Shown piece by piece: positions 13,336 through 56,343 of a DNA stretch of 64,000 nucleotides (its first letter is position 1; the number at the start of each line of letters is the position of its first letter). The DNA lies in NCBI GenBank assembly GCA_903857665.1, contig CAIOFV010000037.1, forward strand, positions 1 through 64,000. Reading direction: 5' to 3'. The notes under the pieces were generated by a model. The model had not been told where the DNA came from. It saw only the letters and a list, made by a program, of their open reading frames with translations, and ran no database searches. The stretch comes from an uncultured Myxococcales bacterium. Lineage in GTDB: Bacteria; Myxococcota_A; UBA9042; DTJE01. The position numbers and the translations under genes are program-made.

Positions 13336-13336
13336 A

Positions 13337-28344: not shown

Positions 28345-28761
28345 TCACTTCTTGGCGACAGGCTTCGCCTTGGCCGGGGCCACCTTCTTGGCGGGCGCCT
28401 TGACCGGGGCAGCCTTCTTCGCCGGGGCGACCTTCTTCGCCGGGGCCTTGACCGGGGCGACCTTCTTCGCCGGGGCCTTGACCGGGGCGACCTTCTTCGC
28501 CGGGGCCTTGACCGGGGCGACCTTCTTCGCCGGGGCCTTGACCGGGGCGACCTTCTTCGCGGGCGCCTTCACCGGGGCGACCTTCTTCGCCGGGGCCTTG
28601 ACCGGGGCGACCTTCTTCGCGGGCGCCTTCACCGGGGCCGCGACGGGGGCAGGCTTCGCGACGGGCTTCGCCGCCTTCACGGGGGCAGCCTTCACCGTCT
28701 TCACGGGAGCCTTCGCCGCAACCTTCGGAGCCGCCTTCTTGATGACCTTCTTGACCGCCAT
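28345..28761 (-). CDS. histone H1-like Lys/Ala/Pro-rich protein
   Basis: 'MAVKKVIKKAAPKVAAKAPVK...' with tandem 'APVKAPAKKV' decapeptides. Confidence 0.85.
   Translation of the reverse strand: MAVKKVIKKAAPKVAAKAPVKTVKAAPVKAAKPVAKPAPVAAPVKAPAKKVAPVKAPAKKVAPVKAPAKKVAPVKAPAKKVAPVKAPAKKVAPVKAPAKKVAPVKAPAKKVAPAKKAAPVKAPAKKVAPAKAKPVAKK
28394..28640. repeat. tandem 30-bp repeat inside the H1-like gene
   Basis: near-identical units of 'gccttgaccggggcgaccttcttcgccggg' and variants. Confidence 0.9.
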
Positions 28762-28799
28762 GATGACCTCCAAACGAGTTATGCCCGGGGGGCAAAGCG

Positions 28800-32411: not shown

Positions 32412-32466
32412 CGGTCCTTGCAGGAAGCTCTCGCCGGAGATGAAGCCGCCTCGGGTGCATCCATGA
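32412..32466 (-). repeat. dispersed repeat copy C
   Basis: minus strand 'gatgcacccgaggcggcttcatctccggcgagagcttcctgcaaggaccgtcg'. Confidence 0.65.
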
Positions 32467-32499
32467 TAGAATATTGGCCCGGTCGGGGAACGTGGCTCG

Positions 32500-34431
32500 G
32501 TGGAAGGAACACGGCAAATCTTCGGTCGATACGAGATCGTACGGCCGTTCGGCGCGGGGGGGATGGGCGAAATCCTCCTGGCGCGCCAGCCTGGCCTGCC
32601 CGGGGTCGAACGCCTGGTCATCATCAAGAAGATCCTGCCCCACCTGGCCCAGGAACCCGGCTTCCTGGAGCGGTTCCTCGACGAGACACGCGTGGCGGCG
32701 AGCCTGAGCCACGGCAACATCGTCCAGGTGTTCGAGGTCGGCGAAGTCGATGGCGAATACTTCATGGCCATGGAATTCGTCGATGGGATGGATCTCAAGG
32801 AGGCCTTCCACCGCCTGAGGGCGACGACCCGGCGCATGCCCGAGGACCTCGCGGTATTCGTGCTGGTCGAGGTCGCCAAGGCCCTGTCGTATGCCCACGA
32901 AAAGCGCGGCCCCGATGGCAAGCCACTGGGCATCGTCCACCGGGACGTGAGCCCGGCCAACCTTCTTCTGTCGATGGACGGGCAGGTCAAACTGACGGAC
33001 TTCGGGGTGGCCAAGGCCGCCCTGCGCCTGTCGCTCACCATCCCGGGGACGCTGCACGGCAAGGTCTACTACATGTCGCCCGAACAGGTGTCGGGCGAGG
33101 AATGCGACCCGCGATCCGACGTGTTCAGCCTGGGCGTCGTGGCCTACGAAATGCTGGCAGGACGACGCCCGTTCGAGGGGACCAGCGAGGTGGCGGTGCT
33201 GGACAAGGTGCGCCGGTGCGACCCGCCACCGCTGGCCGAAGTGGCACCGTGGGTGCCGGGTTCCCTCGCCGCAATCGTCGCTCGCGCGCTGGCCTGCGAC
33301 CCGGCGGACCGCTATCCGACGATGGATGCCTTCCGCCAGGCCTTGTCCACGTACATGATGGAAGCCCACACCATGGTTTCGGCGCGGGCGCTGGCGGAAT
33401 TCCTCACGGAACTCCGCTCCATCGCGCCCGAGCGACTGCCGATGGCGGCCGTGCCGACCCCCATCCGCACCGCGACGCCCCGGACCCTGGACGACGTCGC
33501 TGCGGCCCTCCTGGGACAGGGGCCGGAGGGCCTGAAGACCCCGGCGCCGATCCCCGAGACCGCCGGTTCTCCTCACACCCGGACCCTGGCGTCGGCGGAA
33601 GGGGACGCATCGCGAACCCGCAGGCGGCGCGAACGGCTCCGCAGCATCGTGGCGAGGATCGCGTTCGTGGTGGGCTTGATCGGGCTGGGAACGGGCCTGT
33701 GGGCCTGGAACCTGATCAACAACCTGTCACGCGACGGGCGGACCGAGGTTTCCGCGATCACGGAGGCGGCGCCGGCTGCTGCTCCGTCGCCCGTGGCCGA
33801 CCCCCGCCCGGCAACGCCGACGACACCGGCTTCCTCCGAGGCCGCGACTTCGATCGCCGTGGTCCCCGCGCCCGCACCCGTCCCCGCCGAAGCCCGCCGC
33901 ACCGCGGCCGCATCCCCGGGGCCGTCCTCGACCGCGGCCGAGTCCCCCAGCTCCCGCAAGATCCTGCTGAAATCCGCTCCCGAAGGTGCGCGGGTCATGT
34001 CCGGCGAACGGGAACTGGGCATGACTCCCCTGGACGTGACGGTTCCGGCCGGCGGCAGCCTGCGCCTGGACCTCCTTGCCGAGGGTCACGGTCCGAAGCA
34101 GGTGATCCTGACGTCCACATCGGCGTCGCCGCTCCACGTGGTCCTTCCCGCGGAACCCGGGCGGGTGAAATTCCGTTTCTTCCCTGCCGATGCCGAAGTA
34201 CGGATCGACGGTCGGACCATCGAAACGACGGGGAACCTGGTGGACCTGGAACTGGCCTCCGGGGCCCACGTGCTCAGACTGACGACGCGGAATGGCGAAC
34301 GGTCGCACGACACCCCCTTCGACGTGGTTCCCGGCAGGGCCCGGGCACTTGGAACCGTGGAACTGGGCGAGGGCGGCCGATCCGAGACGGGCGCCACGAC
34401 CTCCCTTCCTCCCCCGACGGAGGCCCCATGA
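32500..34431 (+). CDS. Ser/Thr protein kinase with TM segment and PEGA-like C-terminal region
   Basis: 'FGAGGMGEILLARQ', 'GIVHRDVSPANLLLS', 'LTDFGVAKA'; PEGA-like 'LKSAPEGARVMSGERELGMTPLDVTVPAGG'; GTG start. Confidence 0.93.
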   Translation: MEGTRQIFGRYEIVRPFGAGGMGEILLARQPGLPGVERLVIIKKILPHLAQEPGFLERFLDETRVAASLSHGNIVQVFEVGEVDGEYFMAMEFVDGMDLKEAFHRLRATTRRMPEDLAVFVLVEVAKALSYAHEKRGPDGKPLGIVHRDVSPANLLLSMDGQVKLTDFGVAKAALRLSLTIPGTLHGKVYYMSPEQVSGEECDPRSDVFSLGVVAYEMLAGRRPFEGTSEVAVLDKVRRCDPPPLAEVAPWVPGSLAAIVARALACDPADRYPTMDAFRQALSTYMMEAHTMVSARALAEFLTELRSIAPERLPMAAVPTPIRTATPRTLDDVAAALLGQGPEGLKTPAPIPETAGSPHTRTLASAEGDASRTRRRRERLRSIVARIAFVVGLIGLGTGLWAWNLINNLSRDGRTEVSAITEAAPAAAPSPVADPRPATPTTPASSEAATSIAVVPAPAPVPAEARRTAAASPGPSSTAAESPSSRKILLKSAPEGARVMSGERELGMTPLDVTVPAGGSLRLDLLAEGHGPKQVILTSTSASPLHVVLPAEPGRVKFRFFPADAEVRIDGRTIETTGNLVDLELASGAHVLRLTTRNGERSHDTPFDVVPGRARALGTVELGEGGRSETGATTSLPPPTEAP

Positions 34432-35816
34432 GCGATCTGGACCAGACCCTCACCGTCCATCTCGACGTGCCGGTCGACTACCTCACGCTGTGCAAGTACA
34501 CGCTGAAGGTCATCGAGGGGCCGGACAAGGGCCTGGAAAAGTCGTTCGAGCGGCGCCAGATCGACATCGGGACCGCGCCGGACTGCCACTTCATGCTGTC
34601 CGATCCCACCGTATCGCGAAACCATGCCCGCATCGAGCACGACGGCCAGGGCTACAAGGTGTCCGACGCGGGCAGCAAGAACGGCGTCCGAATCGGCGAC
34701 CTGAAGGTCCTGTCGGCGTACCTGCCCGGCGAGGAACGCCTGATCCTGGGCGAAACCGTCATCCTGTTCCGGCTGGGCACCGAAACCATCGACATCAGCA
34801 TCGCCCGCGAAACGCGCTTCGGAAAGCTGCTGGGAAAATCGGTCGAGATGCGCGAGGTGTTCGCCATCCTCAAGCGCGTGGCGCCCACCGATGTGACGGT
34901 CCTGATCGAGGGCGAAAGCGGCACCGGCAAGGAGGTGGTGGCGGAGTCGCTGCATGCCGCCGGGCCACGCCGGGCGAAGCCGTTCGTCGTGTTCGACTGC
35001 TCGGCGATCCCCAGGGACCTGATGGAAAGCGAACTGTTCGGTCACGTCCGCGGCGCCTTCACCGGGGCGGTCCGCGACCGGTCGGGGGCCATGGCGGAAG
35101 CCAACGGCGGCACGCTGTTCCTGGACGAGGTCGGGGAACTTCCGCTGGAACTGCAGCCCAAGCTGCTGCGGGCCCTGGAAAAGCGCGAGGTCAAGCCCGT
35201 GGGTGGCAACCGGCACGCCACGCTGGACGTGCGGATCATGGCCGCCACGAATCGCCGCCTGGACGACGAGGTACGCGCCGGCAACTTCCGCGAGGACCTG
35301 TTCTGGCGCCTGGGCGTCATCCGGATCGGGCTGCCGCCGGTACGCAAGCGCCCCGAGGACATCCCGCTGCTGGCCGACCATTTCCTGGCGGAAATCGCGG
35401 GTCGGACGGGCGTTCCCGCGCCGCGGCTTTCGTATGACACGATGGAAAAGCTGAAGGAATACGCCTGGCCGGGCAACGTCCGCGAACTGCGGAACTTCCT
35501 GGAACGCTCGGTGATCCTGTCCGGTGCGCTGTCCGGGGCGCCGCTGCCGCTGGACCTGCCTCCCCCGACGCAGACCTCGCTGCGGCGGGATCAGGACGAC
35601 CAGGACGAGGTCCTGCGCGTGAACTTCGACGAGCCCTTCAAGGACGTGAAGGACGGGCTGGTGTCGGAATTCGAGCGCCGGTATTTCAGCCGGCTGCTGA
35701 AGCGGACCGAGGGGAACGTGTCCAAGGCGGCCCGGTTGGCGGGAATCCACCGCAAGAGCCTGGAGTACCTGCTGCGGCAGATCGACCTGCCCCGGTCGGG
35801 GAACGAGGGAGGCTGA
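34428..35816 (+). CDS. FHA-domain sigma54-dependent transcriptional activator
   Basis: FHA 'IDIGTAPDCHFMLSDPTVSRNHARIEHDGQGYKVSDAGSKNGVRIG'; AAA+ 'GESGTGKEVVAESLH', 'GAFTGAVRDRSG'; Fis-type HTH; ATGA overlap with the kinase. Confidence 0.95.
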   Translation: MSDLDQTLTVHLDVPVDYLTLCKYTLKVIEGPDKGLEKSFERRQIDIGTAPDCHFMLSDPTVSRNHARIEHDGQGYKVSDAGSKNGVRIGDLKVLSAYLPGEERLILGETVILFRLGTETIDISIARETRFGKLLGKSVEMREVFAILKRVAPTDVTVLIEGESGTGKEVVAESLHAAGPRRAKPFVVFDCSAIPRDLMESELFGHVRGAFTGAVRDRSGAMAEANGGTLFLDEVGELPLELQPKLLRALEKREVKPVGGNRHATLDVRIMAATNRRLDDEVRAGNFREDLFWRLGVIRIGLPPVRKRPEDIPLLADHFLAEIAGRTGVPAPRLSYDTMEKLKEYAWPGNVRELRNFLERSVILSGALSGAPLPLDLPPPTQTSLRRDQDDQDEVLRVNFDEPFKDVKDGLVSEFERRYFSRLLKRTEGNVSKAARLAGIHRKSLEYLLRQIDLPRSGNEGG

Positions 35817-35923
35817 CCGGACCCATCGTTATTGTTGACGTCTGTCGTGAATTTGGCAGATTGATGCAGTCCGTGCGAGGATCCTGAGTCCCGGAAGGGA
35901 ACTTGCAGATTCGGAGGAGATCG

Positions 35924-36214
35924 ATGGAACGCAAGACGAAGACCCAGACGACGACGAAGACCCTGACGCTGACCCGTGCCGACGTGCGCACGTCGATCGC
36001 GAAGGGCGCATTGACCGAGGAAGAAGAGCGCTACGTGCGGATGCGTTTCGGGATTACCGAGCCGCTGACCGCCGCGCTGACGCGTCGTGGCATCGACTTC
36101 CCGGAAACGCACGCGTTCCTGAACCAACTGGAAGCCGACATGGTCCTGGGCGGTTCCCCGAAGTCCGGCAACCCCGTGAAGGACCGCATCATCAACAGCC
36201 TGCGCCGCTCGTAG
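35924..36214 (+). CDS. small conserved-looking protein of unknown function (96 aa)
   Basis: 'MERKTKTQTTTKTLTLTRADVRTSIAKGALTEEEERYVRMRFGI...'; RBS-like 'ggaggag' upstream. Confidence 0.7.
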   Translation: MERKTKTQTTTKTLTLTRADVRTSIAKGALTEEEERYVRMRFGITEPLTAALTRRGIDFPETHAFLNQLEADMVLGGSPKSGNPVKDRIINSLRRS

Positions 36215-36299
36215 ATCCCCGCAGGCCCCCCTTTGCGACACGCAGAAACCCACCCGAAGGGCAGACACGACCCATCGAACCCCTGATTCGCCGGGAGAA

Positions 36300-36382
36300 T
36301 GTCCTGAGCCAGGCACGAAGGCGGAGGCGAGGATCTCGGATGGAATCTCTTGCCGCAGCCGGAGTCGCCTCGGGCGCGCCTA
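36300..36382 (-). repeat. dispersed repeat copy B
   Basis: minus strand 'gcgcccgaggcgactccggctgcggcaagagattccatccgagatcctcgcctccgccttcgtgcctggctcag'. Confidence 0.6.
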
Positions 36383-37072
36383 TCGGGCTGCGGCCTTGGC
36401 GCGGGCTCGACCCGACGGCCCCAGGCCGGCACGGGTGCGGGCATCCAGGAGCAGGCGGACCACCGCCTCGGGCAGCGCCTTCGCCGGGCCGATGCGGTCG
36501 GTGACCAGCAGGATCTGTGCGGCCTCTTCGCAATGCTCGATCTGGCGGAGCGCCGTCGCGGGATCCGGCCCCCACGCCAGCACGCCATGGCTGCCCAGGA
36601 GGACCACGTCGTAGGGTTCGAGGAACGGCTGCAGCGCCCCGCTGAGGGCCTCGCTGCCCGGCAACGCGAAGGGCACGACCGGCACCACGCCGCCGGTGCC
36701 GACGATGAACTCGGGCAGGAACATCGCCTCGACCGGCCGGCCCACGACCGCGAAGGCGGTGCAGGCGGGCGGGTGGGCGTGCACGACGGCGCCGACGTCC
36801 GGCCGGGTCCCATAGACCGAAAGGTGCATCGGGAGCTCGCCGAAGGGATTGCGGGCGCCCTGCAGTTTGCGGCCCGCGCGGTCCAGCAGCAGGAGGTCGG
36901 TTTCCCGGACGTCGCCCTTCGACATCGCGGTAGGCGTCGCCACCACCTTGCCGTCGGCGGTCAGCGCCGTGACGTTCCCCTCGTGGTTCGCCACCCATCC
37001 GCGGGCATGGAGGGCGTGGCTGACCCGCACGATTTCGCGCTGGAGCCCCGGCAGCGTGACGGACGCGTTCAT
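36380..37072 (-). CDS. class II aldolase/adducin family protein (fuculose-phosphate aldolase-like)
   Basis: 'GRKLQGARNPFGELPMHLSVYGTRPDVGAVVHAHPPACTAFAV', 'LLGSHGVLAWGPDPATAL'. Confidence 0.88.
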   Translation of the reverse strand: MNASVTLPGLQREIVRVSHALHARGWVANHEGNVTALTADGKVVATPTAMSKGDVRETDLLLLDRAGRKLQGARNPFGELPMHLSVYGTRPDVGAVVHAHPPACTAFAVVGRPVEAMFLPEFIVGTGGVVPVVPFALPGSEALSGALQPFLEPYDVVLLGSHGVLAWGPDPATALRQIEHCEEAAQILLVTDRIGPAKALPEAVVRLLLDARTRAGLGPSGRARAKAAAR

Positions 37073-37383
37073 GCGTCACCCCGCGCGACAGCGCCTTCGG
37101 GCAGGCCGGCCGGGATCCGCGCGTCCACGGCATCGACGATGCCGACCACCAGCGAGCGGATGGGCAGCATCTTTTCCTTGAGGATCTGCCGCGCGCCGTT
37201 GCCTTCCGAATTGACCAGCACGAGGTCGCCCGGCCCCGCCTGCACGGTATCGACGGCCAGGAAGGACGGTTCCGCAGGCCGATCCTGCTCATCGACCGGC
37301 TGGACCACGTACAGTTTGAGTCCCTTGTAGGTCGGGTGCTTGACCGTCGAAACGACGGTGCCGAGGACACGACACAGCGTCAC
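37069..37383 (-). CDS. EutN/CcmL family microcompartment vertex protein
   Basis: '[29 protein letters not shown]...[23 protein letters not shown]...[11 protein letters not shown]'; GTG start. Confidence 0.9.
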
Positions 37384-37655
37384 GGCCGACCCTCCACGTC
37401 CACGGAATCCACGATCCCGACGATGGCCGCATCCACCGGCACGAACCACACCGGAAGGGCCAGGGCGGCCTCGCGACTGCTGACAAGGTGCACCACGTCG
37501 CCCGGGCCCGCCTGCACGGCGTCCACGGCGACCAGCACGTTGCCGCGAGGGGTGAGATCCGTATTGAGGGGTTGGACGACCATCAGCCGGACGCCTTCCA
37601 GCCCTTCGGCCTTCTGGGACGCCACGACCGTGCCCACGACCTTGCCCAGGTACAT
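37380..37655 (-). CDS. EutN/CcmL family microcompartment vertex protein
   Basis: '[30 protein letters not shown]...[22 protein letters not shown]...[10 protein letters not shown]'. Confidence 0.92.
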
Positions 37656-37807
37656 CCGGGGACTCCGGGAATCGCCGAACGTATATAGACCCGCCGGACG
37701 GACCCTGTCAACGGACGCCAGTCCGTGCCTTGGCCTTCGCGATCTGTCCTTCCTGCTCCCACCCTGCGGCGCTACACTTCGTTGCGTCGCGCGGAGTGGC
37801 CGGGACG

Positions 37808-39805
37808 ATGCCAGTAGACTCCAATCCAGGCTTCCCCGCGACCGCGCCGGCCGCGGACCTTCTTTTCGCGCTGCACCGCGTGTTTCCCCACTACGGCAGT
37901 TCCTTTTACGCCAAGGCCAAGCTGGTCAAGCGGACCCCGCCGCCGAGTCCGCCGACCATCGTCATCGACCTGATCCAGCAGTGCTCGCTCGGGTGCGCCT
38001 TCTGCTTCGCGGCGGATACACGGCGGCGCGGCGCGTTCCTGGAGGACCCTGCTCTGGACGCGCTGCTGGAGGCCGCCCGCGGGGTGGCTCGCATCGTCGT
38101 GGTCGGCGGTGAACCGTTCGAGCACCCCGGCATCGAGGGGGTGCTGGAACGCCTCTGCCGCACGGTGACGGACGAGGTCGAGGTCTTCACAAACGGCGCC
38201 GCGATTCCGGAGGATCCGGACGCCGCCTTGGCATGGGCCGGCCGGCTCGCATCCCGGGCGTCGGGCCGCGCGCTGCGCCTGACGCTTGCGGCGGACCCGT
38301 GGCACCGTGACCGGCTGGGCGCCGACCGGTTCGAAGCCGCCGTTCAAGCGCTGATCGCGGCCGAGGCCGTGCCCGGCATCCATGCGATGTTCAACGTGAC
38401 CGACAGACGTCTCGACTCGGAAGACTACCTCGACCTGCCGGTAATCCGCGAGGTCCTCAACGCCCTATCGCCCGTCCTCTGGGAGCGTTTCCGACGGCTG
38501 TTGCCGGGCGGCCGCATCGACGACTCGTTCTACATGAATCCCCTGGTGATCCAGGGCAGCCAGGGCGAATGCGAGGACGCTGAGCGGTTGCGCTCCGTCG
38601 ACTTCCTGTTCCACCCCGAGGTCGTCGCGACGCCGCGTGACGGGCGCCTCCTGGTGGTGGGTGCCCTGAACGCCGCCTGGATGAGCGATCCGCCGCCGGC
38701 CCTGATCCTCGGACACCTTCCGGAGCGCGAACTCGCGGACGTGATCCTGACGGACGTGGCGGGCCGGGCGCTTGACTTTCCGTCAGCCGCCTGGCTTCGC
38801 CCGGCCTTCGTCGCCCTCGCCAGCGGACGGGTTGATCGCCCCGCGCTCCTTGCGGACGCGCGAGCCCTTCACGAGGCTCACGGCAGCACAGACCCCTTGC
38901 TCGAGCCGCTGCTGGCCTGCCTGGCGGCCGGGGACGACGACGGCGCCGCCCAGTGCTTCGAGGCGTCCATCCGGTTCGCGGACCTCGCTCGGTTCGGCCG
39001 AGACCCGGATGCCTGGTTCGGCGCTCTTGCCAACCGCCTCCTGGAATTCGCCGACCGGGCACCGGCAGGGCTTTCCATCGACCTGTCGGGTCGCCGGGAT
39101 TTCGACAAGATCCGCCTTCCCGTCCTGCAGCAGGCGCTGGTGCGCCTGGCGGATCGGCGGGAAACGGACGTGTACCAGGCCCCCGTTTCGCTTTGGGGGC
39201 GGCTCGCGGCAGGCGGCGGACAGGAGGTCCCGGTGCTGCTGGCGACCGAACAGACCATCGGCCGGCTGCCCGAGCCGTCCCTTCTGGTCCTGCCCCTGAC
39301 CGGCACCGCGATCGATACCGGCTTCGGGGCCTGGCCCACGGACGCGCCGTATCTCGTCCGGCCCGGCCTCCGCGTAGGTCCGCAGGGCGCGGTGCACGCC
39401 GGGATCGTCGGCGTCACGACCCGGTCGCTCCCCGGCGGCGCCGACCGCGCCGAGAGCGAGGCACGTCGTCTCCTGGAGTACCTCGACCTTCTCTTCGGAC
39501 CTCTGGCCCTGGCGCTCCGGTCCCGGCTTCATGGCCTGGTCGATGACCCCTGGGGGCGTCGCCTGGACGCCCTGCTCGCCCGGCCCCCGAACGACTCCAT
39601 CGCAACCGAAGCCATGCCCCTGCTGGCGGACCCGGGCACCGTCTTCGAGTACGTCACGTTCGACCCGAACCGCAATGCTCCGGCGTTCCACAACAAAGTG
39701 CTGCTGGCGTCCATCTTTGACAGGCTCGACCTGGGCCGGTACGATGTCGGCCGCACGACTCGATTCCGTGCGGCATTGTCGTTCTGGCGGGGAGTTCCCA
39801 AGTGA
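37808..39805 (+). CDS. radical SAM protein with long uncharacterised C-terminal region
   Basis: 'IDLIQQCSLGCAFCFAA' CX3CX2C; 'VVVGGEPFEHPGIEGVLERLC' GGE motif; about 400 aa C-terminal region not recognised. Confidence 0.85.
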   Translation: MPVDSNPGFPATAPAADLLFALHRVFPHYGSSFYAKAKLVKRTPPPSPPTIVIDLIQQCSLGCAFCFAADTRRRGAFLEDPALDALLEAARGVARIVVVGGEPFEHPGIEGVLERLCRTVTDEVEVFTNGAAIPEDPDAALAWAGRLASRASGRALRLTLAADPWHRDRLGADRFEAAVQALIAAEAVPGIHAMFNVTDRRLDSEDYLDLPVIREVLNALSPVLWERFRRLLPGGRIDDSFYMNPLVIQGSQGECEDAERLRSVDFLFHPEVVATPRDGRLLVVGALNAAWMSDPPPALILGHLPERELADVILTDVAGRALDFPSAAWLRPAFVALASGRVDRPALLADARALHEAHGSTDPLLEPLLACLAAGDDDGAAQCFEASIRFADLARFGRDPDAWFGALANRLLEFADRAPAGLSIDLSGRRDFDKIRLPVLQQALVRLADRRETDVYQAPVSLWGRLAAGGGQEVPVLLATEQTIGRLPEPSLLVLPLTGTAIDTGFGAWPTDAPYLVRPGLRVGPQGAVHAGIVGVTTRSLPGGADRAESEARRLLEYLDLLFGPLALALRSRLHGLVDDPWGRRLDALLARPPNDSIATEAMPLLADPGTVFEYVTFDPNRNAPAFHNKVLLASIFDRLDLGRYDVGRTTRFRAALSFWRGVPK

Positions 39806-42000
39806 CCTTCCCCGGTACCTTCCCCATCAGCCTCGTGGAATCCGGCACCGGGACCCCGGGCGGCATCGCGGTCTGCGGCGCTCCGGCCTCGATTGCCACG
39901 CTGTCGGCCCGTCTCGACGAGGCGGTCGCGCAGGGGTTCCACGACGTCACCTTCATCGACTTCGAGCTCCTCGCCCACCCGGACCGCAAGGCGCTGGTGC
40001 GCGCGGTCGTCGCGCGCGGGCTGACGTTCGGCATGGCGACCCATGGCCGCGGATTGCGCCGGGAAGTCGCGGCCGGGCTGCGTCGCACCGGCCTGCGCCG
40101 CGTCGAGGTCACCCTGCACGGCGGCTCGGCCTATCCCTACTACCTGGCTACTCAGATCCATGGCTGGGGCGAGGCCCTTTCGGGGATCGAAACCGCGGCG
40201 CGGGCCGGCCTGGCGGTCGATGTCGTCGTCCCCGTCAACCGGTTCAGCCGAGGCAGCCTGCGGAACGCCGTGGTCGCGATGGAGCAGATGCCTCCCGGCG
40301 TTTCGCTGCGTTTCGAGCCGGACGGCCTGGCCGACTACGCCGCCGAAATCCAGGACGGGACGGCCTACCGTGCCCTGCTGCGGGGCGAATCGGACCCGAC
40401 CGTGCCGTCCGGCGGGCGGTTCGTTCCCACGGGCCAGAGCGTGGACGTCGATCTGGCGGCCTGTCCGTACCGGCGCAGCGGGTCCCTCGCCGAGGATCCG
40501 CTGCGGCACATGCTGGTGCGCTCCGCGGAAGGCTCGTTCCAGGTATACCGCCTGTCGGACCCGATGCCCGATTCCGTGGTTCGCGTCGCCAAGAACGTGC
40601 GCGGGCTGGTGTTCGCGGGGGGGGATCCGGCGCGGCGCCTTGCGCTGGAGTCGGAGTGCAGGACGTGCCGTCAGTTGACGGATTGTCATGCGGCGTTCTT
40701 CGACCTGGGCACCCCGGCACCCCGACCGACCCTGGCCGCGGCCGACGTCGCGGTCGACCTCGTGTCATCGACGGCCTCCGCCGGCATGCGTCACTTGCGG
40801 TCCGCAATGGCCGACCTTCCCGCCGGCAAGCGCCTGAGGGTGGCCGGCCGCGTGCCGTGCCTGGCGATCGGGGCGGACGCCCCCGAACCGAAGCCCTTGC
40901 CCGACATCGGGATCGGCGTGATCGCCGATCTCGCGCAGTCTCACGGCCTGTCGATCGTCGACTATCACCTGCCGCACGAAACCGCGGGAGGCGACTTCGA
41001 CGCCGTCTTCGAGCGCCGCGATTCGCGGGTTTCCGAACGCCGCTCCGAGCGCACGGCCGTCCTCATGGTCTCCTCGGCCTGCGTCGGGAACTGCGTGATG
41101 TGCTCGATGCCCCAGACGTTCGCAGGCCACGCAGTGCCGTTGCCGCGGGCGCTGCCGCTCCTCGAGGAGGTCAAGCTCTGCGGGTTCACCGCCGTCGATA
41201 TCTTCGGCGGCGAAATCATGCTGCGCCTCGACCTGCCGGTCCTGATCGAACTGGCCAAAAGGCTCAACCTGTACGTCATGATCATTTCGACCGGCTACGG
41301 CATCGACGAAGCGTCGCTGGGCCGCATGGTGGAAGCCGGGCTCGACAAGATCGAAATCGCCATCGACGCACCGAATGCCGAGTTGCACGATTTCATCAAG
41401 GGCCGGCGCGGCCTGTTCGACCACGCCGTGCGCGCCGTCCGTGCGGCTCGCGAAAACCCGAGGGTCTATGTCGAGGTCAACACCGTCGTGCTCCCCGAGA
41501 ACTTCCGGTACCTTCCTCAACTGCATCGGTTCATCGCCTCCGAACTGCACGGGCACCGCCAGCACCTGTTCTACGTGACGCACCCACCGAGTTCCCTGGT
41601 CCGGCCGCGGTGGCTCGACGAGGCCCAGGCACGCGAGTACTTCGAGGTCGTGAAGCCCGAACTCGAGCGCATCGAGGCCGAACTGGGAACGCATATCGAT
41701 TTCTGCCCGTCGGTGGAGCCGGGCGACTTCGCGTCACCCGAGGCGTTGTACAAGAACTTCAGTCGCGGCTGCTACCTCGGGGAATCCAGGCGGTGCGCGG
41801 CGCCCGAGCAGGACCTGATGGTGCTGCCGGACGGCGAGGTGTACGCCTGCAACAGCCCCATGGTGATCCACAGCCAGACCGCGATCGGCAACATGGCAAC
41901 GCACCGGCTGATCGACTGCCTTTCGGGCGGCCCGATGGCGCGCTGGCTGCGCGAAGCCGGCACGTGGCCGGAGTGCGAAAGCTGCATTGCCCGAAGGTAG
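39802..42000 (+). CDS. two-domain radical SAM protein with SPASM-like C-terminus; N-terminal barrel lacks CX3CX2C
   Basis: 'SSACVGNCVMCSMPQ' CX3CX2C; C-terminal 'CYLGESRRCAAPEQDLMVLPDGEVYACNSP...ECESC'; ATGA overlap with upstream radical-SAM gene. Confidence 0.85.
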   Translation: MTFPGTFPISLVESGTGTPGGIAVCGAPASIATLSARLDEAVAQGFHDVTFIDFELLAHPDRKALVRAVVARGLTFGMATHGRGLRREVAAGLRRTGLRRVEVTLHGGSAYPYYLATQIHGWGEALSGIETAARAGLAVDVVVPVNRFSRGSLRNAVVAMEQMPPGVSLRFEPDGLADYAAEIQDGTAYRALLRGESDPTVPSGGRFVPTGQSVDVDLAACPYRRSGSLAEDPLRHMLVRSAEGSFQVYRLSDPMPDSVVRVAKNVRGLVFAGGDPARRLALESECRTCRQLTDCHAAFFDLGTPAPRPTLAAADVAVDLVSSTASAGMRHLRSAMADLPAGKRLRVAGRVPCLAIGADAPEPKPLPDIGIGVIADLAQSHGLSIVDYHLPHETAGGDFDAVFERRDSRVSERRSERTAVLMVSSACVGNCVMCSMPQTFAGHAVPLPRALPLLEEVKLCGFTAVDIFGGEIMLRLDLPVLIELAKRLNLYVMIISTGYGIDEASLGRMVEAGLDKIEIAIDAPNAELHDFIKGRRGLFDHAVRAVRAARENPRVYVEVNTVVLPENFRYLPQLHRFIASELHGHRQHLFYVTHPPSSLVRPRWLDEAQAREYFEVVKPELERIEAELGTHIDFCPSVEPGDFASPEALYKNFSRGCYLGESRRCAAPEQDLMVLPDGEVYACNSPMVIHSQTAIGNMATHRLIDCLSGGPMARWLREAGTWPECESCIARR

Positions 42001-42025
42001 GCCCCCGATCCTGCAGGAGGCGAAC

Positions 42026-43180
42026 GTGAAGGAACCCGGTCCGAAGGCACGATTCAGCCTGTCGCTCCCATGGATGATCTTGCTTTCCGTGCTGGTGATC
42101 CTGCTGGAGGCCTGGTCCCGCTATGCCGCGGACCCCGATTTCTGGCTCCCCGACCCGTTCCCGTTCCTGGTGATCTGGGTCATGGGGGTCTTCCTTGCCA
42201 CCGGGTTCATCCAGTCCTCCTATCGACGCTCCATGTCGCGGATGCTGCTGGCGATCGTCCCCGTTGCCTTGCTGCTGGCCTTCGAACCCTGGGCCGCCTT
42301 CCGCGACGTCCAGGCGCTGGGCCAGATCGAACGAACGTCCGACCCGCTCCTTCGGTACCACTACCGGCCGGGGGCCTTCGGCGGGCTCGGCGAGGGGCCC
42401 GTGAATTCGCAGGGCCTGCGGGATCACGAGTACGCGCGTCCGAAGCCGCCGGGCACGTGGCGGGTCGTGCTGCTGGGGGACTCGGTTCCGAACGACGGTT
42501 CGATCCCGTTCGACCTGCGGTTCAAGTCGGTACTGGAGCAGCGCCTCCGCGAAGTCGCGCCGCCGGGGCTCACCGTGGAGGTCGTCAACGTGTCCTGCGA
42601 GGGGTACAACACCCTGCAGGAGGTCCGCCTGCTGGAGCAGGTCGGCCTGGGATACCAGCCGGACCTGGTGGTGCTGGCCTACGTCGTCAACGACCCGTAC
42701 CTGCAGGACGGCTCGGCCCGGCGCATGGGCAGCAGTTTCTTCTTGTTCCGGTTCGTGCCGCTGGTCTATTCCTGGTTCGGGGCCGACTGCAAGGTGTTCG
42801 AACCCATGCACCGGAGTTACGGGTTCCACCTGGCGGTCACCGAGCCGATGGAGCGGCTGCGCATGAAGTCGCTGGCTCACGGGTTCGAGGTGGTGGTCGC
42901 GACGCTGCCGCTCGTCACGGCATTCGATGACCCGGTCTGCGGCGCGATCTACGACCAGGTGGGCGACCTGGTCCGGCGGCTGGGGTTCACGTTCGTCCGG
43001 GTCGTCGATGCCTTCCAGGGAGAAGACCCTCGCGACTTCCTCAAGCCGGGCCAGTCGATGGACAATGTCCACCCGAATGCCGCCGGACACGCCCGGATCG
43101 CGGACGTCCTGTTCAAGGTCCTCCGGACCCGCATGCCATCGGCTGCGCCGGCAGCGCCCGCCTCGGCAGCAGTGCCCTGA
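42026..43180 (+). CDS. membrane-anchored SGNH/GDSL hydrolase family protein
   Basis: N-terminal TM segments; 'VVLLGDSVPND' block I and 'DNVHPNAAGHARIAD' block V; GTG start with 'aggagg' upstream. Confidence 0.82.
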   Translation: MKEPGPKARFSLSLPWMILLSVLVILLEAWSRYAADPDFWLPDPFPFLVIWVMGVFLATGFIQSSYRRSMSRMLLAIVPVALLLAFEPWAAFRDVQALGQIERTSDPLLRYHYRPGAFGGLGEGPVNSQGLRDHEYARPKPPGTWRVVLLGDSVPNDGSIPFDLRFKSVLEQRLREVAPPGLTVEVVNVSCEGYNTLQEVRLLEQVGLGYQPDLVVLAYVVNDPYLQDGSARRMGSSFFLFRFVPLVYSWFGADCKVFEPMHRSYGFHLAVTEPMERLRMKSLAHGFEVVVATLPLVTAFDDPVCGAIYDQVGDLVRRLGFTFVRVVDAFQGEDPRDFLKPGQSMDNVHPNAAGHARIADVLFKVLRTRMPSAAPAAPASAAVP

Positions 43181-43309
43181 AGGCGGGGCCCGGCCCGGGC
43201 TGGTCCTGACGGCCCTCCCGCAGTCCCCGAAGCCACCGGATTCAAGACCGCGGCCGAACCCGGGCCGCAGGGCGGCGACTCGCCGGGAGGACACCGGGTC
43301 CCTGGGGAA

Positions 43310-45697
43310 CTACGCGCCTGCTCGCAGTTCCGGATCGGCAGGACGACCCGACGGTACGGCGACCGGCAGGCCCGGGATCGAGGAGCGAGCCAGGTACAGG
43401 CTGTTCAGCACCACCGTCACGCTGCTGAAGGCCATCGCCGACGCGGCCAGCGCGGGGTTCAGTTCGCGAATCCAGTGCGGCAGGCCCTTGAAAGGCGCAA
43501 GGACGCCCGCGGCGATGGGGATCAGCGCCACGTTGTACGCGAACGCCCAGAAGAGGTTCTGCCGGATCGTGCGCATCGTCCCCCGGGACAACGCGATCGC
43601 CCGGGCCACGCCGGCAGGATCGCCGCCCACCAGGGTCACGTCCGCCGCCTCCACGGCCACGTCCGCCCCAGTGCCGATAGCGATGCCCACGTCGGCCGCG
43701 GCCAGCGCCGGGGCATCGTTGATCCCGTCGCCGACCATCGCGACGGACACGCCCTCCGCCCGTGCGGCTCGCACCGCGTCCGCCTTTCCCTCCGGAAGGA
43801 CGCCCGCCAGCACCCGGTCGATCCCCAGGCGCGATGCCGTGGCCTGGGCCGCGAGCATGCCGTCCCCGGTGATCATCGTGGTCCGCAGCCCCAGCCGATG
43901 CAGCGCCTCCACGGACGCCGCGGCACCGATCTTTTCCACGTCCCGGAACGCGAGCGCCCCGAAGGCCCTGCCGTCCACGGCGACAACCACCGTCGTCGCC
44001 CCACCGACCGCCAACTGCATCACCTGCTCCGCGACGTCCGCCGCGCCCTGGACGTCATCCGCGAACGCCCATCCCGGCTTTCCCACGCGCACGTTGCGCC
44101 CGCCGACCATGGCCGCCACACCCTGTCCGGGGACGACGCTCGCCTCGTCCGGCACGACGATCGCCAGGCCTCGGTCCCTCGCCGCCTGGACCACCGCCGC
44201 ACCCAGCGGATGCCCCGATGCCGATTCGGCGCCCGCGGCAAGTGCCAGCATCTCGTCCGGATCCACCCCCTCCAGGGCCCGCACCTCGTCCAGGGCCGGC
44301 CGGCCGGCCGTCAGGGTCCCCGTCTTGTCCAGCAGGACCGTCCCGACCCGCGACAGGGCCTCCAGCGCCTCGGGCCCCCGGAACAGCAACCCCATCCGCG
44401 CCCCGCGCCCGGTACCGACCAGGATCGCGGTGGGTGTCGCAAGCCCCAGGGCGCAGGGACACGCGATGACCAGCACGGCCACCATCCGGACCATGGCGGC
44501 TACGGGATCGCCGCCGATCGCCCACCATGCGACGAACGTCACGGCGGCCAGCGCGGCCACGGTCGGGACGAACACCGCCGATACCCGGTCGGCCATGCGC
44601 TGCACCGGCGCCCGACCCGCCTGGGCCTCGCGCACCAGGCGAACGATCCGGGCCAGAGCGGTGGCTTCGCCGGCACCGGTGACCCGCATCACCAGCAGGC
44701 CTTCGCCGTTGATCGTCGCCCCGAACACCCGGTCTTCCGGCGCCTTGTCGACCGGCATCGACTCGCCGGTCAGCAGGCTTTCGTCCACGGACGACCTCCC
44801 CGTGACGATCTCGCCGTCCGCCGGCACCCGCTCGCCGGGGCGCACGGCAACCAGGTCTCCGGGCCGCAGTGCGGCGGCGGGGACGTCCCGCTCAATCGAC
44901 GCATTGATTGTGCCCGAGGCGGCTTCGGCCCCGGCGAGAGTTTCCTGCTCAAACCCATCCCTTCGCCCTGGGGCTCGGCCACCTTCGCGCTCGGGCGAAG
45001 CCGTCCGCAGGTGCGCGACGGAAGGCGCCAGTTCCATCAGCGAGCGCAGGGCCCGGGACGCACGGCCGCGCGCACGCCCCTCCAGCATCTTGCCCAACTG
45101 GACCAGCGTGACGATCAACGCCGCGGTTTCGAACATTGGGTGGCCCTTCACACCGAACAGGACCACGGCCGCAGACCAGCACCACGCCACCAGGGACCCC
45201 AGGGCGACCAGGACGTCCATGTTGGCCATGCGCGCCCTCAACGCCCGCAGGGCCCCGGACAGGAATCCCCACCCCGAGTAGAACTGGACTGGCGTCGCCA
45301 GCGCCAGCATCAGCCAGGGAAGCCAGGCACCCCCGTCCAGGATGCCGGCGTCCGACGCCATCGACAGGATCACCAGGGGCAGGGTGAAGGCGGCACCCAC
45401 GACGAATCGCCGCCACCGCAGGGACTCGTCAGCCGCGCGGGCCGCCTGCTCGTCCTTGCCGTCGTCGCGCGCCGGCACGGCCCGGAAGCCGGCGGCCTCC
45501 ACGGCCCGCAGCATGGCCTCGACGGTGGCCACCGCGGGATCGAAATGCACCGCGCAGGATTGATCCGCCAGGTTGACGTCCGCCGACGCGACGCCATCGA
45601 CCCTGGACACGGCCCGCTCGACCGCCTTGGCGCAGTTGGCGCAGGACATCCCGATGATCGCGAGGTCCGTTCGCTGGTTCGACAAGGCCGGCACTCC
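43310..45697 (-). CDS. copA: Cu+-type P1B ATPase (start uncertain; GTG 45697 or TTG 45685)
   Basis: HMA '[12 protein letters not shown]', '[11 protein letters not shown]', 'DKTGTLT', 'LLTGES', '[12 protein letters not shown]'. Confidence 0.92.
44909..45005 (+). repeat. dispersed repeat copy D, inside copA
   Basis: 'tgtgcccgaggcggcttcggccccggcgagagtttcctgctcaaacccatcccttcgccctggggctcgg'. Confidence 0.65.
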
Positions 45698-45787
45698 GAG
45701 ACGCCCGCTGAAGGGTGGGGTCTCCGGGCGCCTTGCGCAAGGAGGGCGGTGGAGCGGCACTGCCGCAGGCACGAGGGATGCGGAAGC

Positions 45788-46306
45788 CTACTCGGCCTCC
45801 AACTGGAACTCGGGGACGTCGAACCAGAATCCCAGCCCCGTCACGGAATCGATCTCGGCCTGGACGATCGCCGCGTGGCCTTCCTCGATTTCCAGGAACC
45901 GGGCGAACAGGGCTTTTTCGGTCGCTCCGGGCAGGTCTTCCACGACCCTGCGGTACCAGGCCGCCGTCGTCCGTTCGGCCGCCTCGGCCTTGCGCAGCGT
46001 GGCCAGCGCCGACGCCCGCTCCTCCTGGGTCATCGCCATCCTTTGGTCCAGGTTCTTCCCCGCCGCCAGAAGCCGATCCAGCGAAGGAACCATCGTCACC
46101 AGGATCTCCAGGCGGACCTTGCCGGTCGCCGTCCACTCCCTCATCCGGGCGATCAGGTAGTCCAGGTGCCCCTGCTCCTCCCGTGACAGCAGCGTCAGCA
46201 CCCGGGCCGCCACCGGGTCCGCTGCCTGGGTCGCGGCCTCGGCATACACGTCCCGAACCCTGGCCTCGTACTCCATGGCCGTCCGAATGGCCTCCTCGAC
46301 CGTCAT
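45788..46306 (-). CDS. rubrerythrin/ferritin-like di-iron protein
   Basis: 'AIRTAMEYEARVRDVYAEAA...LLSREEQGHLDYL...FLEIEEGHAAIVQAEID'. Confidence 0.82.
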   Translation of the reverse strand: MTVEEAIRTAMEYEARVRDVYAEAATQAADPVAARVLTLLSREEQGHLDYLIARMREWTATGKVRLEILVTMVPSLDRLLAAGKNLDQRMAMTQEERASALATLRKAEAAERTTAAWYRRVVEDLPGATEKALFARFLEIEEGHAAIVQAEIDSVTGLGFWFDVPEFQLEAE

Positions 46307-46336
46307 GGCACCCTCCCTCCGGGCCCGACACCGGCC

Positions 46337-47500
46337 CTATGCCGGCCTGTACGGGCGTCCGGTCATCGACGAAACCACCAGCGCCTTCCGTTCCTCCAGG
46401 CCCCCGATCAGCACGGCTCCGACCACCCGCCCCGCGGCGTCCATCCGGACGCGCCGGTATGCGTCTCCCTCCCGGAACGACTCTTCCCGGGCGAACGGCG
46501 CAAAGAGATCCCCGATGCTGAACACCGCCACGTCCGTGATCTTCAAGGTCGTCTGTCGCACCGATCCGGAATACGCGATCGGCGCGCCCGCCAGGGACGC
46601 CCCGGCCGCCTTTCCCTGCTCACCCCCGGCGCTCCAGAAGCCGTACAGGCCGGTCCGATGTTCGGCGCAGTCGCCCGCAGCCCAGATCCCGGCGGCCGAG
46701 GTCCGCAGGCCGTCGTCCACCCGGATCCCCTTGTCGATGGCCAGCCCGGAATCCCGCGCCAGCGTCGTGTCGGGGCGCACGCCCGCGGACACCACCACGA
46801 GGTCCGCCGGCAGGCTTTCGCCCCCCTTCAGGGACACCCGAACCGCCGCCCCCTGCCCGGCCTCGATCCCCTCGACACCGGACGCCAGCCGGAAGGAAAC
46901 GCCGCGCCGTTCCAGGATCCCCTGGAGCACCGCGCCCCCCTCGGCATCCACCTGTCGCGGCAACAGCCACGGGGCCGCCTCGACCACGGTCACGGACATG
47001 CCGGTCCCGGCCAGCGACGCCGCCAGTTCCAGCCCGAGCAGCCCGCCGCCCACCACCACGCATCGCCCGCCATGACCCGCCCGCGCCTTCAGGTCCAGCG
47101 CGTCGTCCATCCGGCGAAGGATGGTCACCGACGGAAGCGACGCCCCCGGGAACGGCGGCACGAAGGGTTTCGCGCCCACCGCCAGCAACAGGCCGTCATA
47201 CGGGATCCATTCGCCGCCACCGACGTGGATCCGCGCCGCCGTTGGGTCGATCCCCTCGACACGCGCCCCGCGTCGCAGCTCGATGCGCTGCTCGTCGTAC
47301 CAGGCATCCAGGCGCAGGAACAGGCCAGCCGGCGCGATCCGGCCGTCCAACACCTCGCCGATACGGATGCGCGAGTAGTAGGGCCAGCGCTCGTCGGTCA
47401 GTACCAGGATCCGGGCGTCCGCGTCCTTCGCCCGGATCGCGGTGGCGCCCTCGATGCCCGACACGCCGCCGCCCACGACGACATGGGTTCGAACGCTCAT
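46337..47500 (-). CDS. FAD-dependent NAD(P)-disulfide-type oxidoreductase (rubredoxin/nitrite reductase-like)
   Basis: '[31 protein letters not shown]', '[28 protein letters not shown]', '[10 protein letters not shown]'. Confidence 0.9.
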
Positions 47501-47679
47501 GCCGGGGCCCCCGGCTGCGAGTCCTCGGGTTCGAACATTTCCTTGGCCGCACCGCATTCGGGGCATACCCACCCGTCGGGGAGATCCTCGAAGGCGGTGC
47601 CGGCCGGGATTGCGGCCACCGGGTCGCCCGTGGCCGGGTCGTACGTGAAGCCGCACACGATGCAGACGTGCCTCGTCAT
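47497..47679 (-). CDS. rubredoxin
   Basis: '[47 protein letters not shown]' two CXXC; ATGA overlap. Confidence 0.95.
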
Positions 47680-47743
47680 GGCCGATCCTCCCTCTGCGGG
47701 CCGCTTCGCCGATGCCCCACGGCCCGGCGAGGCGATGTCCCTG

Positions 47744-48751
47744 TCACAGGAATCGCAACAACCGGACGGCCTCGGGGACCACCCGGAACTCCACGCTTTC
47801 CCGCATGCCCGCCACGTCCCCCGCCACCTGGAACGGCACGGGCTGCGAGTACTCCAACCGGACCTCGGAGGCATAGAAATCGAACAATCCCTCGGCCGCG
47901 AACGTCCCGTCCCACACGTGGCGGATCTGCAGAAGGCTCCAGGTCAGCGGGACGTTTGAAATCCTCAACTGGAAGAACCCGGCGTTGCGATCGGCCCACG
48001 GCAGCAGGCGCATCCCGTAGCCATACGTGGGCGTCGTCCCGGCGATCGTCACCAGCGCAGGCCCGTCGTACAGGACCTCGCCGGAGCGATACAGCCGCCC
48101 CCGGGCGCCTTCCGCCCCGATCCGCCAGGCCTCCGCACCCAGGTTGGTGATGCGGACCGTCAGGTTGCGCCCCTCGACGAACCCCTTGATGTGCCGCGGG
48201 GCGGTGGCCCCGAAGAACGCCGCGAAGTACCCGCCGACATTCTGGAACAGGGGCTTGATGCGCCCGGCCCCGAACCTGTTCTTGAAATCCACGTAGTCAG
48301 ACAGGATTTCAGCGTCTGCGCCCAGGCTTGCGAACGGGAACAGCCGCCCTTCGACGTCCACCAGCGAGATCGTCCAGGTGTCCAGCGACGGGTTGGTGAC
48401 GTAGGTCTTCAGATCCTGGATGGGGCTGCCCGACGACACCAGCAGCGAAAGCGCGTTGCCGGTGCCCAGCGACAGCACGCCCAGCGCCGGCAGCGGCGGC
48501 CGTTCGGGACGGGCCAGGGACGCGCGCCAGAGGCAGTTGATGAGTTGGACGACCGTCCCGTCGCCTCCGCCCGTGAAGACGGTGGGATAGCGGCGATCCA
48601 GGATGCTCCGGGCGAACTGGTCGCCGTCCTCGGGCGTCGAGGCGAAGAAGATGTCGTCGGGCGGCACCAGTTCCTCGATCTGCCCCACCACGTCCGGGGA
48701 GACCCGGCGCGCGTTGGCGTTCAGATAGATGGCGAACGGCCCGATCGGCAC
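47744..48751 (-). CDS. diacylglycerol kinase catalytic domain (lipid kinase) protein
   Basis: '[24 protein letters not shown]', '[16 protein letters not shown]', 'LGTGNALS'. Confidence 0.85.
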
Positions 48752-48921
48752 CCTGGTCCATCCCCCCGGCCCATCGAGGGCCGACTTCCGGCAGGAAAAA
48801 AGTGTACCACACCCGCCCTGCGGCACCGCCGGCGCGGTTCGCGGGACCTTCCCCCGGGCCATCGCGGAGTGGCGACGCGGTCGAAACCGTACCTGCTGCC
48901 CGTCCATTCCCGGGTTCCCCT

Positions 48922-48960
48922 GGGCGCACCCGAGGCGGCCCCGTCGTGGGTACCAGGGAA
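48922..48960 (+). repeat. possible diverged dispersed repeat copy F
   Basis: 'gcgcacccgaggcggccccgtcg...' shares the 5' core only. Confidence 0.35.
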
Positions 48961-49093
48961 TTCCAGGTGCACCGCGGCGTTCTGGCTGTTGGATTCAAGG
49001 CCCCGCGCGGCGGCGGATCGGCACGGGACGGGCGTTTCCTTGAAGTGGGGGATCCCGTGTGCTAGCGTGTTCCATTGGACTCGGAGGTTCTCC

Positions 49094-50950
49094 GTGAGGT
49101 TCCGCACCTTGACAGCAACGGCCCTGGGAGTCCTCTTCGCGACGTTCGCATGGGGGGGGTGCTCGGAGGCCGCCCCGGCCGCGCCGGTGGAACCCTCGTC
49201 GATCCGGCTGGCCTCGCGGCAGCCCATTGCCGTATCGACCCCTGCGCCGCCGACCGAAAAGATGGGCGACGACGTCGATGACGCCGAGGAAAAGGACTAC
49301 TGGGAAGGCGTGGACTTCGGTCCGGACGACTTCGCGGAGGTCCGGCGCTTCGTGAAGTTCTTCTACATCGACCCGGGCTACGACAAGCACCTGGCCTGGC
49401 TGACCGCCGCCAGTTTCGCGCTGCGGACGATGGACCCCTCGCGCGAGGCGGTCCCCGAGGACTGGTGGCGCCGCAAGCACGCCGACGTGAAGGAGCACAA
49501 GCGCTGGGAAGGCGAGCCCGAACGCCTCCGGAAGGGCGACCTGTTCCTGGTGGCCCGGCTGGCCAAGGACGGTCTGGACCTGCCGAAGGGCACGCTGACC
49601 CCGAACCAGATCCGCGCCCGGAAAGCCGAGTACCGGCAGCGCCTGGCCGACCTGGACCACGCCTGGGCCCGCGTCCCGTTCACCGAGGCCGACTTCGACC
49701 GGGTGATGGACTGGATCAAGGCGCAGCAGGGATCCAAGCCGGACTTCAAGCCCAGCAAGTTCTACGTGGCCGCGGCCCAGGGCTACCTGGCGTCCCTGGA
49801 CCCGCACTCCACGATCGTGTCCGCGAAGGCGTGGGACGAAAGCACCCGGACGACCACGGACGGCTCGTTCGAAGGCATCGGCGCGGTTCTGATGAAGCGC
49901 GGCGACGACATCCTGGTCGAGAACCCGATGGAGGGCCAGCCGGCCTTCAAGGCAGGCCTGCGGGCCGGCGACGTCGTGGTTTCCGTTGACGGAAAGGCCG
50001 TGGGCGGCCTGGAACTGCAGAAGGTCGTCAAGCGCATCCGCGGGTCCAAGGGTTCCACGGTGGTGCTGGCGGTGCGGCGCCTGGGCGAACCGCGCGACCT
50101 GACCTTCGAGATCGTCCGCGATCACATCGAAATCAAGAACGTCCAGTCCCACATGCTGGATCGGCACCCCGATGTCGGCTACGTCAAGGTCACGGGCTTC
50201 GTGCCCTCGACCCGCGAATCGGTCCAGCAGGCCATCGAAAACCTGAAGTCCCAGACGAAGGGCGGGCGCCTGCGCGGGCTGGTGCTGGACATGCGCAACA
50301 ACTCGGGCGGCTTGCTGCAGGAATCGGTCGATATGGCCGACGATTTCCTGGAGGACGGCGTCATCGTCAGCGTCAAGAACCCCAGCGATCGGGACGAGGT
50401 GTTCAAGGCCGAGCCCGGTTCCTGGAAGTTCCCGACCGTGGTGCTGGTCAACGACGGCAGCGCCTCCGCGGCCGAGATCCTGGCCAGCGCGCTGCAGGAA
50501 AACCACCGCGCGCTGGTGGTCGGCGACCGGACCTTCGGCAAGGCGTCGGTGCAGACGCTGCTGAACCCACTGCTGCGCCGCGACTACTACATCAAGCTGA
50601 CGGTGGCCCGGTACTACGCGCCTTCGGGCCGCACGATCCAGGTCACCGGGGTGGTCCCGGACATCACCGTGCCGCCCGCCCCGGGCGAACAGCCGCCCGT
50701 GGGCTTCCGCGAGGAGGACCTGCACCACCACCTGTCGCGCCTGTCCGGCGAGTACAAGTCCCCGAACCTGCTGGTGGCGAAGAAGGTACTGGCGTGCGAC
50801 AAGCGCACGGGCGTCGGCGACCAGATCGCGAAGGCCGACCCCCACCCCCAGGTCAAGCCCGACTATCCCCTGCTGAAGGCCGCGGATTACCTGGAGTGCG
50901 TGGCGTCGTTCGAGGACGGGAACCCGTCGGATACCGCCGGCACCCGCTAG
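49094..50950 (+). CDS. S41 family C-terminal processing peptidase with PDZ domain, lipoprotein
   Basis: lipobox 'AWGGC'; PDZ 'GMEGQPAFKAGLRAGDVVVSVDGKAV'-like region; 'LRGLVLDMRNNSGGLL', 'VLVNDGSASAAEILASALQ...VVGDRTFGKASVQ'. Confidence 0.92.
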   Translation: MRFRTLTATALGVLFATFAWGGCSEAAPAAPVEPSSIRLASRQPIAVSTPAPPTEKMGDDVDDAEEKDYWEGVDFGPDDFAEVRRFVKFFYIDPGYDKHLAWLTAASFALRTMDPSREAVPEDWWRRKHADVKEHKRWEGEPERLRKGDLFLVARLAKDGLDLPKGTLTPNQIRARKAEYRQRLADLDHAWARVPFTEADFDRVMDWIKAQQGSKPDFKPSKFYVAAAQGYLASLDPHSTIVSAKAWDESTRTTTDGSFEGIGAVLMKRGDDILVENPMEGQPAFKAGLRAGDVVVSVDGKAVGGLELQKVVKRIRGSKGSTVVLAVRRLGEPRDLTFEIVRDHIEIKNVQSHMLDRHPDVGYVKVTGFVPSTRESVQQAIENLKSQTKGGRLRGLVLDMRNNSGGLLQESVDMADDFLEDGVIVSVKNPSDRDEVFKAEPGSWKFPTVVLVNDGSASAAEILASALQENHRALVVGDRTFGKASVQTLLNPLLRRDYYIKLTVARYYAPSGRTIQVTGVVPDITVPPAPGEQPPVGFREEDLHHHLSRLSGEYKSPNLLVAKKVLACDKRTGVGDQIAKADPHPQVKPDYPLLKAADYLECVASFEDGNPSDTAGTR

Positions 50951-50977
50951 CGCCTGACCCGGGCGACAGGCAGCACG

Positions 50978-52966
<1,989 letters not shown>

Positions 52967-56031: not shown

Positions 56032-56343
56032 CGGTCTGTTCTCCTGCCATACGACGTAGAGGAGGGTACCGGACGAAGGGGGCGAGGACAATGCGCCGCG
56101 GTCCTCCTCCCATGGAGGAAGAAGGCCGTGGAAGGGCTTCAGCCCCGCGCCCCATGACACACTGCGAGTTCGGGCTCACTCCTCGAGCGATCGTGGTCAG
56201 GGGTGCACGTCACTGTTCCGATACGAAATCGCATCGCCCGATCATTTGACCGGCTGCATGCGGGATCCGGGCGTTGTCGATCGCGGTTGCTTCCTCCCGG
56301 GTGCTATGCTGATTCCCGGCTTCACAACAAACCGGTGATAGCG

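Follow-up and report, generated by a model that had tools for sequence, protein, structure and literature searches.

Three co-directional genes lie on the forward strand of the window, the whole 64,000-nt stretch of an uncultured Myxococcales contig analysed here, and the sequence bears out the positions at which a preliminary description had placed them. The first two encode radical-SAM proteins, termed P1 and P2 below, and the third encodes an SGNH/GDSL hydrolase, P0003. The reading frames of P1 and P2 overlap at 39802–39805 as had been described, although the overlapping sequence is GTGA rather than ATGA, and the SGNH gene does follow 25 bp 3′ of P2 with its own AGGAGG. A search of positions 37000–44000 against Rfam gave no match. 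The features discussed below are as follows.

37808–39805, + strand: P1, ATG start, 665-aa radical-SAM protein
37982–38005, + strand: CX3CX2C motif of P1, CSLGCAFC, residues 59–66, invariant in 11/11 aligned homologues
38825–39802, + strand: C-terminal region of P1, approximately residues 340–665 (about 330 aa), assigned to no family; predicted to be helical apart from a small beta region at 473–540
39802–42000, + strand: P2, GTG start, 732-aa internally duplicated radical-SAM protein
39904–40224, + strand: degenerate N-terminal radical-SAM half of P2, residues 35–141 (Pfam Radical_SAM, E 1.8e-8)
40462–40686, + strand: middle Cys module of P2, C221 ... C286-X2-C289-X5-C295, invariant in 14/14 aligned homologues
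41068–41535, + strand: canonical radical-SAM core of P2, residues 423–578, with CVGNCVMC at 427–434 and GGE at 469–471 in invariant columns (Pfam, E 2.4e-28)
41794–41985, + strand: truncated SPASM region of P2 (PF13186), C665, C683, C725 and C728, invariant in 14/14
42015–42020, + strand: AGGAGG ribosome-binding site of the SGNH gene, from the sequence
42026–43180, + strand: SGNH/GDSL hydrolase P0003, GTG start, 384 aa, predicted to be membrane-anchored (PF13472)
37726–43356, no strand: insertion block, delimited by blastn against G065; it contains P1, P2 and the SGNH gene only

Anatomy of the two radical-SAM proteins

Both P1 and P2 match the Pfam Radical_SAM family (PF04055) over Pfam's own cut-off, with 34.4 and 99.8 bits, respectively, and the canonical CX3CX2C motif that the preliminary description had recognized in each of them falls inside that domain. 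Besides the CX3CX2C motif, the 11 aligned P1 homologues share an invariant GGEP and further invariant core residues, and the same alignment contains no further invariant cysteine. The C-terminal part of P1 had no Pfam match at E ≤ 10. A structure model of P1 was obtained with a pLDDT of 78.8 and a pTM of 0.80, and a fold search with P1, the C-terminal region included, returned radical-SAM enzymes as its only significant PDB matches.

P2 contains a feature that had been overlooked, in that its N-terminal half is, by Pfam, a second radical-SAM domain devoid of the cluster motif. The Radical_SAM match of this half begins only at profile position 34 and thus leaves out the cluster-binding start; aligned with intact N halves, this half shows neither CX3CX2C nor GGE. 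Comparison of the N-half profile with the C-half profile (hhalign probability 99.5, E 3e-22) indicates an internal duplication. The Cys region at the end of P2 had been called SPASM-like, and residues 665–728 indeed score 26.6 bits against PF13186 (cut-off 21.5); the region is truncated, however, as the layout C665-X12-G-X4-C683 ... C725-X2-C728 is followed directly by the end of the protein. Compared with the seven-Cys SPASM pattern (CX9-15GX4C ... CX2CX5CX3C ... C), P2 thus carries four C-terminal cysteines and a separate four-Cys set in the middle of the protein. From these patterns we infer that C221/C286/C289/C295 and C665/C683/C725/C728 constitute two putative auxiliary Fe–S sites, 1 and 2. 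The structure model of P2 (pLDDT 85.8, pTM 0.88) confidently covers the cluster-less N half, and its PDB fold matches are led by BlsE, followed by SuiB, DesII, SkfB and PqqE.

The N half of P2 varies widely among homologues. It is intact in loci L040 and L044 and forms a separate ORF in L078 and, judged by the same frame pattern, in L077; three homologues lack its cluster cysteines, and in five (L045–L049) it is not recognizable at all. In L043, its three cysteines have gone (SNNRNSFQ in place of CNNRCLFC) with GGEP kept. The middle Cys module is invariant throughout the 14 aligned sequences, even in those homologues that lack the N-terminal radical-SAM half. These variants amount to an unusual natural experiment within one family: the first barrel of P2 may look active, be encoded separately, lack its cysteines or be absent altogether, and the adjoining auxiliary Cys module stays constant throughout. 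They allow direct tests of what a 'dead' radical-SAM barrel and auxiliary clusters contribute. Separately, further radical-SAM ORFs are clustered upstream of the split P2 of the groundwater locus L077 (139–4473).

Linkage, distribution and transfer of the pair

A profile search (E ≤ 1e-20) detected P1 in 11 of the 379 sampled genomes of the phylum, presumably Myxococcota, with P2 adjoining it in every case (11/11), and two groundwater genomes supply further P1–P2 loci, in one of which (L077) the two genes are approximately 3.3 kb apart. The linkage recurs across families and classes, in agreement with the earlier proposal of a dedicated system. P1 precedes P2 in the window and in G003, which belongs to another family, and P2 comes first in all others; the G003 copies are fused, with one continuous frame of 1385 aa covering both. 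P1 and P2 have diverged in step, as judged from the correlation of their pairwise distances (r 0.93, Mantel p 2e-4). All-versus-all comparison of the neighbourhoods (frames of at least 60 aa) found no further gene common to different genera. The P1–P2 duo is therefore conserved as a system, and the P1–P2–SGNH trio is not. When the linkage is followed into relatives, as the preliminary description had proposed, its P1–P2 part holds, its SGNH part fails, and genomes of the same genus lack the pair.

P2 occurs with no detected P1 in three genomes of the host family, all of them draft assemblies, and P2 alone may work in some hosts. At the P2-only loci L041 and L043 of the host family, small lipoproteins that resemble each other are encoded directly downstream of P2 (in L043, CG and then DDTGNGNDVFIYVDYGDGDDTS). 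A scan of the genome collection with the P1 profile yielded at least 8 strong loci, followed by a gap down to core-only matches, and all of these strong loci are recorded as Deltaproteobacteria or Myxococcales MAGs; a pattern scan of the collection with the single P2 sequence gave no hit. The pair has so far been found only in uncultured Myxococcota-like bacteria.

The history of the locus in the window can be read from its relatives. In G065, a genome of the same genus, the sequence corresponding to 37726–43356 is replaced by approximately 18 bp, that is, an empty site: by blastn, window positions 32464–37725 align with 1191–6459 of the G065 locus (L192) and 43357–51046 with 6477–14000, each at about 84% identity. 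The sequence absent from G065 amounts to 5.63 kb and holds exactly P1, P2 and the SGNH gene. The corresponding site of G040, a genome of the same family, is also without the block, and G040 carries a pair of its own on another contig. In both the P1 and the P2 trees, which contain long branches, the copies from the window cluster with those from G003 with support of 100/99, and a clade uniting the copies of the host family is rejected with p-AU values of 1e-45 (P1) and 1.7e-4 (P2). Because vertical descent within the host family is rejected and the site is empty in a close relative, the simplest reading is that transfer explains the gain of the pair in the window lineage. The block borders revealed no flanking or terminal repeats, insertion-sequence ends or target duplication, the GC content (69.2%, against 68.9% and 69.8% in the flanks) provided no compositional signal, and a search for plasmid and phage carriage of the pair gave no match.

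Other parts of the window were noted in passing. On the minus strand at 36380–37655, tandem EutN/CcmL vertex genes (37069–37449 and 37380–37655) lie beside a class II aldolase gene; microcompartment shell genes are found on other contigs of the same genome (C14, C152 and C122), so this region resembles a microcompartment satellite. The minus strand at 28345–28773 encodes a repetitive protein rich in Lys, Ala and Pro (KKVAPVKAPAKKVAPVKAP), with a histone-H1-like composition and no Pfam match. Several Asp/Ala-rich predicted lipoproteins, some of them repeat-bearing, are encoded at 54778–57549 and 59609–61705, with no or very weak Pfam matches.

The SGNH hydrolase gene

P0003 scores 42.8 bits against Lipase_GDSL_2 (PF13472; cut-off 32.9) and contains the blocks GDS, VND and DNVH, which correspond to the GDS, ND and DxxH blocks of SGNH/GDSL hydrolases; hydrophobic stretches at its N terminus were read from the sequence. 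The preliminary description treated the three genes as one operon, perhaps finishing at the membrane. A three-gene pathway of this kind, in which the pair would make or alter an envelope component and the hydrolase would finish it at the membrane by deacylation or acyl transfer, is suggested by the co-directional position of the SGNH gene 25 bp downstream with its own ribosome-binding site, by the single indel that it shares with the pair, and by an unrelated gene run in another genome (G234), where a tandem radical-SAM gene, another radical-SAM gene and an SGNH gene lie together. Wider comparison makes such a pathway improbable, as no relative of P0003 occurs at any other pair locus and the operon is accordingly not conserved as a trio. 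Its closest homologues (48–51% identity, in three genomes) are stand-alone genes beside housekeeping genes, with no radical-SAM gene apparent; among their neighbours, named from reading of the sequences, are a MATE-type transporter gene in three and a phosphatidyltransferase-like gene in two. Likewise, within 1.5 kb of approximately 30 SGNH loci, no reading frame was seen that combined CX3CX2C with a GGEP or GAEP after it.

We do not count the SGNH gene in the conserved system, because it is absent from the other pair loci and its homologues stand alone, and its lack of a conserved link to the pair leaves the idea of a final step at the membrane unsupported. Since it lies inside the inserted block, it probably arrived along with the pair, or disappeared with it elsewhere; we regard it as a passenger in the window lineage, and at most as an optional tailoring enzyme. 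As for the run in G234 (L197, G234:C24, 1015–6120, minus strand), it consists of a tandem radical-SAM gene, a further radical-SAM-like gene and an SGNH hydrolase gene, and the halves of its tandem protein resemble those of P2, which suggests that tandem radical-SAM proteins are commoner in the group.

A candidate two-component enzyme, its substrate and known systems

The preliminary description could name no pathway for these genes and proposed an HMM search against radical-SAM subgroups. That search, run against NCBIfam, returned shared-core matches only, and every equivalog score was far below its cut-off, in keeping with the failure to name a pathway. The radical-SAM pair matched no curated family model above cut-off, and the literature searched, which left most subscription journals outside, contained no account of a P1–P2 pair. 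P1 scores 22.8 bits with the NCBIfam viperin model, whose cut-off is 180, and a defence role was rejected on the viperin and pVip model scores. An antiviral enzyme akin to the prokaryotic viperins might be read from the weak similarity to PADLOC pVip models (27 bits for P1, 40 bits for P2) and from the patchy, mobile occurrence of the pair, yet we consider it scarcely credible given that viperin score, the confinement of the similarity to the shared radical-SAM core, the lack of recognized defence genes among the scanned neighbours and the lack of matches in plasmids and phages.

On balance, and with moderate confidence, we favour, from sequence comparison, the interpretation that P1 and P2 are the two components of a single radical-SAM enzyme whose genes are passed on together, by descent and by transfer. 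The two proteins would act inside one complex, in which the second half of P2, together with its auxiliary clusters, would perform oxidative radical chemistry and P1 would contribute a second SAM-cleaving site. The dead N half of P2 could serve as a scaffold or substrate-binding domain. The substrate of the enzyme would most likely be a host-made protein, cofactor or metabolite, given that no precursor gene accompanies the cassette and that it has no conserved companion; a cassette transferred in this way points to a substrate general among hosts, an unusual situation if true. More tentatively, and with doubt prevailing, the pair might represent a new two-component, three-barrel class, with an active barrel in P1 and two barrels in P2, of which one is active and the other dead or active, spreading horizontally as a stand-alone cassette that introduces an undescribed radical modification on a common host molecule.

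Two other substrates were weighed. A RiPP maturase pair like TrnC/TrnD, with its precursor encoded elsewhere or too short to recognize, is compatible with the relatives of P2 by profile and fold, which include SuiB, SkfB and a sactipeptide maturase, with the many NCBIfam maturase models that match P2 below cut-off, and with the precedent of TrnC and TrnD, which shows that two radical-SAM proteins can make one maturase (PMC12093266). We nevertheless judge it unlikely. Pfam searches of P1 and P2 found no RRE or PqqD-like leader-binding domain, although the C-terminal region of P1, which belongs to no family, might contain a divergent one; the neighbourhoods offered no conserved extra gene among frames of at least 60 aa, and a scan for short ORFs found no adequate precursor in the inserted block. 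A precursor gene was thus seen neither in the block nor in the neighbourhoods; the preliminary description, too, had seen no RiPP precursor or transporter nearby, and the block holds no transporter and no plausible precursor. The second candidate substrate is an envelope lipoprotein rich in Asp or Cys, of a kind whose genes are frequent neighbours. Such genes lie near the pair in L042, L045, L046, L048 and L078 and near the P2-only loci L041 and L043, and P2 resembles TIGR04133, a lipoprotein-named radical SAM/SPASM model, at a score far below cut-off. This enrichment was sought post hoc with related loci counted repeatedly, and it depends on the filter (5 near versus 1 elsewhere under the strict one, p 0.03–0.09 under looser ones); as the window pair also has no gene of this kind next to it, we hold modification of a lipoprotein to be very unlikely.

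The two-component arrangement that we favour is feasible, because published two-protein radical-SAM enzymes exist. In the thuricin CD sactisynthase, TrnC and TrnD form a tight complex in which only the TrnC cluster is strictly essential (PMC12093266). TrnC/TrnD are two different radical-SAM proteins that work as one unit, as is proposed for P1–P2 from their linkage, fusion and correlated divergence, but the substrates of TrnC/TrnD are the precursor peptides TrnA and TrnB, whereas no precursor was found for P1–P2; they further differ in that P1 is without SPASM and P2 is internally duplicated. LipS1 and LipS2, the two-protein lipoyl synthase, act successively on one protein-bound chain (PMC9585515) and so jointly modify a pre-existing host substrate, as is proposed for P1–P2. 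Unlike P1, which has no conserved cysteines for one, both LipS proteins bear an auxiliary cluster, and no lipoyl or biotin synthase model is among the matches of P1 and P2.

Other relatives share parts of the architecture. FbiC carries two radical-SAM domains in one chain (PMC11917521), and the FO synthase FbiC/CofG–CofH occurs as one chain or two proteins depending on the organism, much like the P2 variants; both of its domains are active, however, whereas the N domain of P2 is degenerate or lost in most members, and no FbiC model is among the P1 and P2 matches listed. The cytosylglucuronate decarboxylase BlsE (PDB 7vob) is the best match of the second half of P2 in both sequence and fold, but it is a single-domain enzyme with no tandem architecture, and P2 reaches only 72.9 bits against the BlsE equivalog cut-off of 400 (TIGR04466). 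The radical SAM/SPASM peptide enzymes SuiB, SkfB and PqqE have a core fold similar to that of P2 and differ in that no RRE or precursor was found for P1–P2 and the SPASM region of P2 is truncated. By analogy with these systems, our best reading is that P1–P2 would work like LipS1/LipS2 or TrnC/TrnD while belonging to neither family.
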